A stretch of DNA of 64,000 bases from Candidatus Aveggerthella stercoripullorum (lineage in GTDB: Bacteria > Actinomycetota > Coriobacteriia > Coriobacteriales > Eggerthellaceae). A program made the translations under genes and the position numbers. Positions 57,726-60,407 of the stretch are shown here, piece by piece (position 1 is the first letter of the stretch; each line of letters starts with the position of its first letter). The notes beneath the pieces are model-generated. The model was given only the letters and a program-made list of their open reading frames with translations. It did no database searches and was not told the origin of the DNA. The stretch covers positions 1 to 64,000 of the forward strand of contig DVGB01000044.1 in the NCBI GenBank assembly GCA_018712955.1, given 5' to 3'.

Positions 57726-58775
57726 CTAGTTGAAGCGATGCACGAACCAGTCCGCCATCGAAGCGAGCAGATCGCGCGCATCGGACGGGCGCACCTCTTT
57801 GACCAAGCGCGCCTTTGCCTTTTCCGTAAGGTCTTCCGCATACGAACGCGCGTACTGAATGCTGCCGGAAGCCTCCATGATGGCAACCGCTTCTGCGAGC
57901 ACCGCCGGGTCCTTCTCTTTCGCCGAAAGAATCTCGATCAAGCGATCGCGCTGGTCCGAATGCTGCAGCGCATGCACCACTACAAGCGTGCGCTTGCCTT
58001 CGGTGATGTCGTTGCGGAAATCTTTCTTCGTGGACTCCTCCGACCCGATGAGGTTGAGCAGGTCGTCTTGAATCTGGAATGCGAGGCCGCATGCCAGGCC
58101 GTAAGCGCGCAGGCCTTCGATTTCGGGCTCGGCACCGCCGCCGACGATGGCGCCAACCGCAAGCGGCACTGCGCCGGAATAATGGGCGGTCTTGTGCGTC
58201 GCCATAGTGAGGTAGTCTTCGGTCTTCAGGTCGTAGCGGCCGTCGCGCGCCCACCCGATGTCCAGCGCCTGGCCCTCGATGGTATGGCGCGTCATGCGAA
58301 TAAGCTCGTCGATCACACGGACCTTCGTGTCGCTGTCAAGACGCGGATCGTTGACAACCGTGCCATTTACCAGGGAAAGCGCCAAATCGCCCGCATTGAT
58401 GGCAAGCCCGATGCCTTCGGTCAAGTGCATGCACGGCTCGCCGCGGCGCAACTCGGCTTCGTCTGCAATGTCGTCATGAATGAGCGCTGCCGTATGGAAG
58501 TGCTCGATGGCCGCTGCTGCGGACATCGCGCGGTCAACATCTCCCCCGACGGCCAAACAACCGGCGAAACAGATGAGCGGACGATGGCGCTTGCCGCCGT
58601 TTTTGCTGTACTCCTTCAGCGGGGTGTAGAGGTAGCGATCCATGTCCGGATGAGTGCCCGTCGGCAGATAGCTGTTCACCAGGTCGCCTACTTGGGCGGC
58701 GAAAGCGTTCAGGTAATCCGCGAAGTTCGTTGGCCGAACCGCGGCTGCTGCCATGATTTCGTTAATGGTCGTCAT
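57726..58775 (-). CDS. Polyprenyl (geranylgeranyl/farnesyl-type) diphosphate synthase
   Basis: A 349-residue trans-prenyltransferase that chains isoprenyl diphosphates for quinone side chains or carrier lipids. The KNGGKRHRPLI motif, the first aspartate-rich motif as HDDIADEA and the second as QIQDDLLNLIG are visible. The first motif is the short DDxxD form. Product length cannot be assigned. An AGGCGAGG site precedes the ATG at 58775. Its promoter region contains the duplicated tRNA-Leu 3' end. Confidence 0.9.
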   Translation of the reverse strand: MTTINEIMAAAAVRPTNFADYLNAFAAQVGDLVNSYLPTGTHPDMDRYLYTPLKEYSKNGGKRHRPLICFAGCLAVGGDVDRAMSAAAAIEHFHTAALIHDDIADEAELRRGEPCMHLTEGIGLAINAGDLALSLVNGTVVNDPRLDSDTKVRVIDELIRMTRHTIEGQALDIGWARDGRYDLKTEDYLTMATHKTAHYSGAVPLAVGAIVGGGAEPEIEGLRAYGLACGLAFQIQDDLLNLIGSEESTKKDFRNDITEGKRTLVVVHALQHSDQRDRLIEILSAKEKDPAVLAEAVAIMEASGSIQYARSYAEDLTEKAKARLVKEVRPSDARDLLASMADWFVHRFN

Positions 58776-58823: not shown

Positions 58824-58863
58824 TGTCGCTATCCGTTCCAACCTGGTAGGAGCGGTGGGACTC
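58824..58863. repeat. Direct repeat copy 1 (tRNA-Leu 3'-end duplicate)
   Basis: This 40-bp sequence is identical to 59009-59048, which covers the last 20 bases of tRNA-Leu and the 20 bases beyond it. The copies are 185 bp apart. It resembles an attachment site. Confidence 0.85.
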
Positions 58864-58924
58864 CCGCGCCCCGCTGCGCGGGACGCTCTACCCCTCCCTC
58901 GCAGGCTCGGTCGGGCGGTTTCCT

Positions 58925-58949
58925 GAAAACTGCCCACCGGGCAGTTTTC
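58925..58949 (-). terminator. Hairpin between the two repeat copies
   Basis: A perfect 11-bp stem (58925-58935 with 58939-58949) with an ACC loop. Each side is flanked by A- or T-rich bases. It may terminate the tRNA transcript. Confidence 0.7.
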
Positions 58950-59008
58950 TTCACGGAAACCCACCTCATCGGTTCGAGCCCCACCGGGCCTTCCCCTTGG
59001 GTCTTCCC

Positions 59009-59048
59009 TGTCGCTATCCGTTCCAACCTGGTAGGAGCGGTGGGACTC
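59009..59048. repeat. Direct repeat copy 2 (over tRNA-Leu 3' end)
   Basis: A perfect 40-bp match to 58824-58863. Half lies in the tRNA, half in its 3' flank. Confidence 0.85.
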
Positions 59049-59113
59049 GAACCCACAAGTCCGAAGACGGAGGATTTTAAGTCCCCTGCGTATGCCAATT
59101 CCGCCACGCTCCC
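59029..59113 (-). tRNA. tRNA-Leu (UAA)
   Basis: An 85-nt type II tRNA with encoded CCA. The acceptor GGGAGCG pairs with CGCTCCT (one G-U pair). The anticodon loop reads CTTAAAA with anticodon TAA. There is a long variable arm (CCTCCGTCTTCGGAC), and GGGTTCGAGTCCC forms the T arm. It lies upstream of the prenyl synthase gene on the same strand. Confidence 0.97.
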
Positions 59114-59270: not shown

Positions 59271-60257
59271 TTACACTGTCGGCGCATCCTGCTTTCCATG
59301 CCGAAGGGACGCGTCTAGGATTATGCCGTGCAGAATGTCCGTCTCGCTCACGGTGAAGGACTCCATGCCCGCCGCATCCAGCACCGCTTGCAGGATAACG
59401 AGCCCCGCCACGATGACCGGCGCGCGATCGGGCTCGAGTCCGGGGATGGTGCGCCGTTTTGCCAGCGGCATTGCCGCGGTGCTCCGCTCCAGCGCGTCAA
59501 GGGTTTCCCGGTCGATGACGGAAAGATGCACGCGCCGAGGATCGTAGTGCTCCAAACGCAGGTGCATGGCCACCACACTCGTGGCAGTGCCCGCCACAGC
59601 AGCCATCGTCTGCCCTTTGAAGCCCGCCTCGCGAACCGTCTGGAAGAACGGAACGAACGTGCCGAGCGCCCAAGAACGGGCGCGCTCAAGTTCCTCCCGC
59701 GCAGGCGGGTCGTCATGAAGGAACAGTTCCGTCACGCGGCGGCATCCGATGTCGAACGAGCGGCGGAATTGGGGTGCCTGGCCTGCCTGTCCTGCAATAA
59801 TCTCCGTCGAGCCCCCGCCCACGTCCACCACGAACAAAGGAACGGGCGGAAACGAGCTCGAAGCCCCTTTGAACGAAAGCTCCGCCTCGCGCTCTCCGGG
59901 AATCACGGACAGCTCGATGCCGCGCTTTTTCAACAGCGCTGTAAATTCGTCCGCATTGCGCGCATCGCGCGCCGCGGAGGTAGCGACCGCGGTAAGAGGG
60001 ATGCCCCCCTGGATGCCGTCGCGGCATTCGTCGATGATATCCAGAAAGCGGAGCATTTGCTCGTCGACGCGCTGCATCGCGGCAGGAAGCAAGACCCCGC
60101 TCGATGCGACCCCTTCCCCCAAGTTCGTGATCGCGTGAGCGCGCCGCACTTCGTGCACTCCAGACGCGTCCACGTCAGCCACGAGCAGACGGCACGTCAC
60201 CGTTCCGATGTCGATGGCCGCAAACCGCTGTGCGCAGGATTCGTTCAGTCCGGGCAT
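59271..60257 (-). CDS. ppx: Ppx/GppA-family exopolyphosphatase
   Basis: A 328-residue phosphatase of the actin/Hsp70 fold that degrades polyphosphate or pppGpp. AAIDIGTVTCRLLVADVD (phosphate 1 loop) opens it, and VVDVGGGSTEIIAGQ (phosphate 2) follows. The length is that of the short, single-domain form. The ATG at 60257 has AAGGGG upstream. It lies between the divIC-like gene and tRNA-Leu on the same strand. Confidence 0.92.
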   Translation of the reverse strand: MPGLNESCAQRFAAIDIGTVTCRLLVADVDASGVHEVRRAHAITNLGEGVASSGVLLPAAMQRVDEQMLRFLDIIDECRDGIQGGIPLTAVATSAARDARNADEFTALLKKRGIELSVIPGEREAELSFKGASSSFPPVPLFVVDVGGGSTEIIAGQAGQAPQFRRSFDIGCRRVTELFLHDDPPAREELERARSWALGTFVPFFQTVREAGFKGQTMAAVAGTATSVVAMHLRLEHYDPRRVHLSVIDRETLDALERSTAAMPLAKRRTIPGLEPDRAPVIVAGLVILQAVLDAAGMESFTVSETDILHGIILDASLRHGKQDAPTV

Positions 60258-60278
60258 TACCGCCCCTTTCTCGCGAAC

Positions 60279-60305
60279 GGCGTGCAGGCCGTCGGCCTGC
60301 ACGCC
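60279..60305. terminator. 12-bp hairpin between divIC-like gene and ppx
   Basis: The arms 60279-60290 and 60294-60305 pair perfectly with a three-base loop. It has no T run on the minus strand. It is either a weak terminator or a 5' structure of ppx. Confidence 0.6.
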
Positions 60306-60407
60306 TCTTTGCCCTCGTACGGCCAATATAGTACGACCGCCTACGAAAGCCACCGTTGGCACGCGGCCTGACGGCATCGTTGCGCAGGTATGCTGCGTTT
60401 GCTGCTG

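Follow-up and report, generated by a model that had tools for sequence, protein, structure and literature searches.

A candidate non-coding mobile element at the 3' ends of tRNA and tmRNA genes in Coriobacteriales

The 3' end of a tRNA-Leu(UAA) gene is duplicated exactly in Candidatus Aveggerthella stercoripullorum, and the short spacer between the two copies recurs beside many other tRNA genes. We consider it probable (roughly 0.8, on comparative sequence evidence) that this spacer represents a non-coding mobile element whose insertion target is the 3' half of tRNA and tmRNA genes. The element (unit M, ~145-165 bp) appears to be made up of a variable left arm and a ~105-bp folded core, here called X. 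The data are best read as revealing a new family of mobile elements that are minimal, non-coding, and directed at tRNA genes. The window analyzed is the whole stretch of 64,000 nucleotides at positions 1 to 64,000 of contig DVGB01000044.1 (assembly GCA_018712955.1).

The tRNA-Leu(UAA) locus and the distribution of the element

A preliminary description of the window reported an exact 40-bp direct repeat at the tRNA-Leu(UAA) 3' end, half of each copy lying in the tRNA. Both points are borne out: positions 58824-58863 are identical to 59009-59048, with a start spacing of 185, and since the tRNA gene occupies 59029-59113 on the minus strand, each copy has two equal parts, 20 bp from the tRNA 3' half and 20 bp from the flank downstream. 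It is out of the question that a 40-mer would recur within 200 bp by chance. An independent congeneric assembly, from another species of the genus, has the same arrangement at the same locus (G001, L010). The features of the locus, listed in the direction of the tRNA, are as follows.

59271-60377, minus strand: gene for a Ppx/GppA phosphatase, upstream of the tRNA (PF02541, E 2.6e-51)
59029-59113, minus strand: host gene, tRNA-Leu(UAA) (ARAGORN; Rfam RF00005, 53.4 bits)
59029-59048, minus strand: proximal tRNA 3' half, nt 57-76, T-loop centre to CCA, belonging to the working tRNA (from sequence)
58864-59028, minus strand: putative mobile unit M between both tRNA 3' halves, 165 bp (145 bp without the 20-bp shared flank)
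58844-58863, minus strand: target duplication, a second, distal tRNA 3' half matching the proximal one at 20/20 positions (from sequence; pattern seen in 124 loci)
58824-58843, minus strand: shared flank beyond the tRNA, 20 bp, which with the 3' half makes up the 40-bp repeat (from repeat comparison)
57726-58775, minus strand: polyprenyl synthetase gene, downstream of the element (PF00348, E 2.9e-65)

The bounds of unit M are set by the duplicated tRNA halves, with boundaries as at related loci. Among 30 tRNA-Leu(UAA) loci of relatives, the duplication is present in four, all of which contain the element core; one further locus retains a remnant of the element, and 25 have no copy. Thus the duplication never occurs without the element at this gene, in keeping with the earlier suggestion that it is a sign of mobile-element insertion. 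The repeat might instead be a plain tandem duplication of the tRNA end with no element involved, and some units do stand in tandem with similar flanks. However, every duplicated copy at the loci checked comes with X, and a single X family is found at unrelated tRNAs. We reject this explanation as vanishingly improbable, as X is dispersed, lies 3' of 22 kinds of tRNA, and accompanies every tRNA-Leu(UAA) duplication.

When the locus was used as a query, its spacer was found at several other places in its own genome. A covariance model of core X, built from 18 copies, gives nine matches in that genome. Of 138 genomes scanned from the family, 64 match the model; of 299 from the order, 101 do, spanning at least four families; in a sample of the phylum (396 genomes), it is restricted to the order. 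Organisms bearing copies include Candidatus Aveggerthella, Enterorhabdus sp. P55, Curtanaerobium respiraculi, and Hugonella massiliensis. The core pattern has no copies in IMG/VR, phage records, or plasmid records, on which grounds a phage, plasmid, or viral origin of X is rejected; the one IMG/VR match to a shorter pattern is a chance match within a coding frame. We found no description of the element in literature on Coriobacteria, Eggerthella, and tRNA-linked motifs, which is weak evidence given that most subscription journals lay outside the search. Another dispersed palindromic repeat, apparently unrelated to X, was encountered downstream of tRNA-Ser in G136 (L127:200-1300, query nt 694-775 and 913-971), where short stretches recur at many sites and on both strands in G136 and G125.

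The element is tightly linked to tRNA genes. All but six of 117 copies (111/117, from 100 loci) lie directly 3' of a tRNA gene and on its strand, mostly starting 43-67 bp past the tRNA end. Tandem arrays of two or three units occur, with the second and third units at ~180-bp steps. The six remaining copies comprise three at contig ends, one after a tmRNA gene, and two after 5'-truncated tRNA fragments. In other families of the order, most copies examined likewise lie 3' of tRNA genes. The tmRNA-linked copy (L105, 1177-1305, minus strand, in genome G030) is accompanied by a duplication of the tmRNA 3' end, and the target therefore appears to be the T-arm/acceptor end and not the tRNA as such.

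Several loci are unusual in ways that touch on the history of these regions. Fragments of tRNAs truncated at the 5' end (Leu(UAA)-like and Ala(CGC)) lie just 5' of X at L116, L148, and L155, the one at L148 being cut at the anticodon loop; these are probably 3' ends displaced by larger islands integrating at the anticodon loop. At L039 (G000:C107:1-1500), one X lies between a proximal half of tRNA-Gly type and a distal half of tRNA-Lys type, which probably reflects an assembly error at this repeat (L043 and L047 offer a comparison) or, alternatively, real recombination between tRNA loci. Two tRNA-Ala loci of G030 (L106 and L107) share a long downstream repeat (CACAGTGCACCCC...), ~100-300 bp after X, which ends in a second, degenerate X-like piece.

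The folded core and its closing helix

Core X of the window can be drawn as a multi-helix junction closed by pairing with the duplicated tRNA half. Its parts, together with the left arm that precedes it, are listed below from the tRNA outwards.

58985-59028, minus strand: variable left arm, from the tRNA CCA to the anti-T arm; no intrinsic terminator found in it
58857-58984, minus strand: structured core X including closing helix P1 (covariance-model match 143.7 bits; fold z = -5.0)
58971-58982, minus strand: anti-T arm GGGGCTCGAACC, inverted complement of the host T-arm with one G.U (from sequence and pairing)
58976-58982, minus strand: 5' strand of P1, the first 7 nt of the anti-T arm
58963-58973, minus strand: helix P2, a small hairpin, ACC-GAUGA-GGU
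58917-58961, minus strand: span of helix P3, in which 58955-58961 pairs with 58917-58923
58925-58949, minus strand: helix P4
58892-58915, minus strand: helix P5, CCCGACCGAGC..GCGAGGGAGGG, with tandem G.A steps
58866-58886, minus strand: helix P6, a GC-rich hairpin, GCGUCCCGC-GCA-GCGGGGCGC
58857-58863, minus strand: 3' strand of P1, GAGTCCC, the 7 nt with which the distal tRNA 3' half also begins

A conserved internal loop, CGUNAAG..NAG, lies between P3 and P4, and in other copies the P2 loops are GNRA-like (GGGA, GUGA, GAGA, and GCGA). The minimum folding energies of X are ~5 standard deviations below those of shuffled sequences. Across 117 copies, double-sided changes occur in 37 of 40 pairs, 97.3% of paired cells are preserved as pairs versus 72.6% in shuffled alignments (no shuffle reached so high a value), and double-change cells number 1009 versus 301, in an alignment fitted to the covariance model, which favours structure. 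The 18-copy alignment, made without structure, agrees with the fold, and the covariation signal is gone when helix partners are slid. When read on the tRNA-sense strand, the helices contain 102 G.U and 26 A.C pairings, which identifies this strand as the one that folds, either as RNA or as single-stranded DNA. As far as covariation can establish it, the tRNA-sense strand of X is under selection to fold. A known RNA family is rejected as the identity of X: an Rfam search gave no significant match, permissive thresholds included, and only the tRNA and tmRNA passed the gathering threshold.

The anti-T arm ties the fold to the host gene. Across 120 loci, the arm is paired to nt 57-62 of the host tRNA in 96-100% of cases; the figure drops to 82% at nt 63 and to some 50-60% at nt 64-68. 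The partner of its P1 strand is the start of the duplicated tRNA half. At tRNA nt 60, G.U occurs 12 times and A.C not at all. Pairing with the element's own host (9.6 of 12 positions) exceeds every permutation of hosts (8.2; maximum 8.5). Target choice and later adaptation both fit this match.

Target duplication and evidence for mobility

Core X is followed by a copy of the host tRNA 3' half and then by the native flank. In 124 loci, the two tRNA halves have a mean identity of 98% (median 100%), and the next 30 bp a mean of 67%. The extent of the duplication can be judged from 36 loci with unrelated flanks. In 28 of them the halves match at 20/20 positions. Beyond CCA, one or more further nucleotides are identical in 29 loci (random pairs would give 29%) and two or more in 20 (random pairs, about 10%); on the other side the identity ends sharply at nt 56/57. 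Extending from nt 57 to 1-2 nt past CCA, the duplication is therefore about 21-22 bp, and as the recipient's 3' half is present on both sides, the tRNA stays whole.

The flanks themselves carry further information. Beyond the tRNA half, the proximal flank resembles the distal flank in 61 of 129 loci (over 20 bp in this window), which indicates that some arrays grew by tandem duplication. Intrinsic terminators are found in 73 of 129 proximal segments; the other 56 (about 43%), this window's included, have no terminator-like hairpin, so that read-through from the tRNA into X is possible. At three loci of family f5 (L165, L166, and L167), a long hairpin with almost perfect pairing takes up the proximal flank beyond CCA in place of an ordinary terminator.

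Some of these features recall a retro-element, in which an X RNA with a tRNA-like 3' half would be reverse-transcribed and integrated near tRNA genes. The folding strand is RNA-like (G.U excess, GNRA-like loops, and tandem G.A), the anti-T arm can be likened to a primer-binding site, and the duplication runs from nt 57/58 to near CCA. However, the identity that reaches 1-2 nt into flanking DNA in 29 of the 36 loci implies that the template was DNA or a precursor, and it disfavours copying from mature tRNA. Moreover, RVT_1 has no match in eight X-rich genomes (G159, G160, G136, G138, G030, G129, G125, and G124). We regard a retro-element as quite unlikely. Cas1, searched for as a test of a casposon or Cas1-integrated element, is absent from X-rich G160, G136, G030, and G129. 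As both enzymes are absent from several copy-rich genomes, neither reverse transcriptase nor Cas1 can be required in-genome machinery.

The evidence for mobility is comparative, with one genome per species, and at that level it establishes insertion beside tRNA and tmRNA genes with duplication of their 3' half. In G191, one unit, largely identical in left arm and core, is present at tRNA-Thr, tRNA-Gly, and tRNA-Leu, and at each of these loci X is followed by that host's own 3' half. The T-arm complemented by the anti-T arm, GGTTCGAGTCC, is common to all three hosts. The left arm at these loci (L168, L169, and L170), GTACGAATAAACCTACAAC...ACGGATGGA, is common to all three directly after CCA and here looks like a defined part of the element. 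Similarly, Ser(CGA) and Ser(GCU) of G129 carry units that are 97% identical, each lying between two copies of its recipient's half, and in G091 the whole unit is common to Ser(GGA) and Ser(GCU). Gene conversion may account in part for the near-identical cores. Cores group somewhat more strongly by genome (63 changes) than by tRNA kind (76), a comparison that involves few columns and is weak alone. Occupied and empty sites can also be compared. Among 12 species of genus g63, the tRNA-Ser(GCU) locus carries the unit in three, a truncated unit in one, and is empty in eight. At tRNA-Ala(CGC), the locus of G014 is empty, and its native flank corresponds to the distal flank in the congener G124.

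An alternative is that X is not mobile and serves the host, as a structured RNA or as an insulator or terminator of tRNA genes that is selected and homogenized by gene conversion. The very strong structural conservation of X is consistent with this, as are the match of P1 to each host tRNA, the distal tRNA half that stays intact even beside diverged flanks, and the proximal flanks without terminator-like hairpins, through which X could be transcribed. Against a host function, presence is patchy: 54% of family genomes have no core X at the scan threshold, and the empty tRNA-Ser(gct) sites in eight of 12 congeners and the 25 of 30 tRNA-Leu(UAA) loci with no copy tell the same story. The variable set of host tRNAs, the tandem copies, and the target duplications also argue for mobility, and we consider a purely host-beneficial role unlikely.

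The preliminary description had read the repeat as the scar of an emptied island or as an unused attachment pair, and the unit is indeed bounded on either side by direct repeats of the tRNA 3' end, such as a tyrosine-integrase att pair would leave, whether from an emptied element or from a mini-element integrated site-specifically at the T-loop. The T-loop is a known integration sublocation, and small changes in the core can retarget such elements (phage Ms6, PMC1762012). At some loci the proximal flank is unlike the native distal one, as expected if the element had brought in its own 3' end. All 37 genomes checked contain tyrosine recombinases, which are so ubiquitous that this is uninformative. 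Other observations speak against an att pair. No integrase or recombinase is found on the window's contig, nor any recombinase among reading frames read between X copies, and X-rich G163 and G182 have only two recombinase matches each, the number expected for XerC/D alone. Core exchange would leave the donor's half on one side, whereas near-identical units at differing acceptor halves have the recipient's half on both (G129 and G191), unlike classical attL and attR. The spacer is structurally conserved and is not a remnant.

We therefore reject the emptied island: the 145-bp spacer, being a conserved, dispersed, covarying, and folded sequence present at more than 20 kinds of tRNA, is apparently the element itself. 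Nor do islands lie between X copies examined on one contig; those copies belong to separate tRNAs, and the two loci read between copies contain ordinary genes. A site-specific att pair thus has a low probability, and we retain the reading of the spacer as a non-coding mobile element.

Relation to known elements and a possible mechanism

The genomic islands of tRNA and tmRNA genes are tyrosine-integrase elements (Islander, PMC4383910; T-loop class, e.g., phage Ms6, PMC1762012). Like them, X units target the 3' half of the gene from the T-loop and keep the gene whole, with a displaced 3' fragment at the far end and tandem accretion. Unlike them, the ~165-bp unit carries neither integrase nor cargo, has a conserved multi-helix fold with a host-complementary arm, and belongs to one family that serves more than 20 tRNA kinds, with both halves the recipient's own and no exchange of cores. 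A second comparison is with tycheposons, elements at tRNA genes that use partial tRNA copies and in some cases have no recombinase of their own. Tycheposons are kilobase-sized and gene-bearing, unlike the X unit, and to our knowledge no conserved folded core has been reported for them.

Bacterial MITE-like and palindromic repeats (ERIC, Correia/NEMIS, and REP) are short, non-coding, dispersed, and foldable, and are presumably mobilized in trans. The X unit is likewise short, non-coding, and dispersed, with a target-site duplication, but this duplication is about 21-22 bp versus the usual short one (about 2-10 bp). X also differs in being strictly linked to tRNA and tmRNA genes and in closing its fold through a helix with the copy derived from the host gene. 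Inverted arms were seen only as the anti-T arm and the copy of the host's own tRNA, and no terminal inverted repeats of a parent transposon were seen. In short, the X unit resembles a tRNA-targeting integrative element in behaviour and a MITE in appearance, yet it fails tested defining features of both: integrase and core exchange (islands), and a short target duplication (MITEs).

Two further likenesses concern the fold. Integron attC sites offer an analogy only, in the folded single strand as a possible substrate, the arrays, and the ordered insertion beside a fixed site; judged from the fold, X shows no recognized R/L box architecture, and it appears to have neither linkage to an integron integrase nor cassette genes. 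Structured RNAs in Rfam such as Collinsella-1 share with X a covarying multi-helix structure in actinobacterial gut genomes, although X itself has no significant Rfam match. With its very strong covariation, X is a family of RNA or DNA structure of Rfam grade, for which 164 copies have been aligned.

These features suggest a mechanism, which we offer tentatively. The mobile or recognized form would be the folded tRNA-sense single strand, and the anti-T arm would select or dock on the T-arm of the target. A putative trans-acting enzyme would then cut through the tRNA 3' half with a stagger of about two DNA turns. Landing would be harmless to the host, and for this reason the element would persist. 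It is possible, although we would not yet favour it, that the elements form a new RNA-like class that finds its targets by base-pairing to the T-arm, is inserted by a trans-acting enzyme, and leaves a ~21-bp duplication.

In practical terms, the elements are a source of falsely called islands at tRNA genes, of displaced fragments of tRNAs, and of breaks in assemblies. If targeting by base-pairing is true, the universally conserved T-loop would let the element land safely in any tRNA or tmRNA gene. Target choice via T-arm pairing would be directly testable, and a new mobilizing enzyme would be called for. If the mobile-element reading is right, the element is a minimal selfish one whose sole content is its fold, widespread in gut and rumen Coriobacteriia, and it exploits the sole feature common to all tRNA genes while leaving the tRNA intact.
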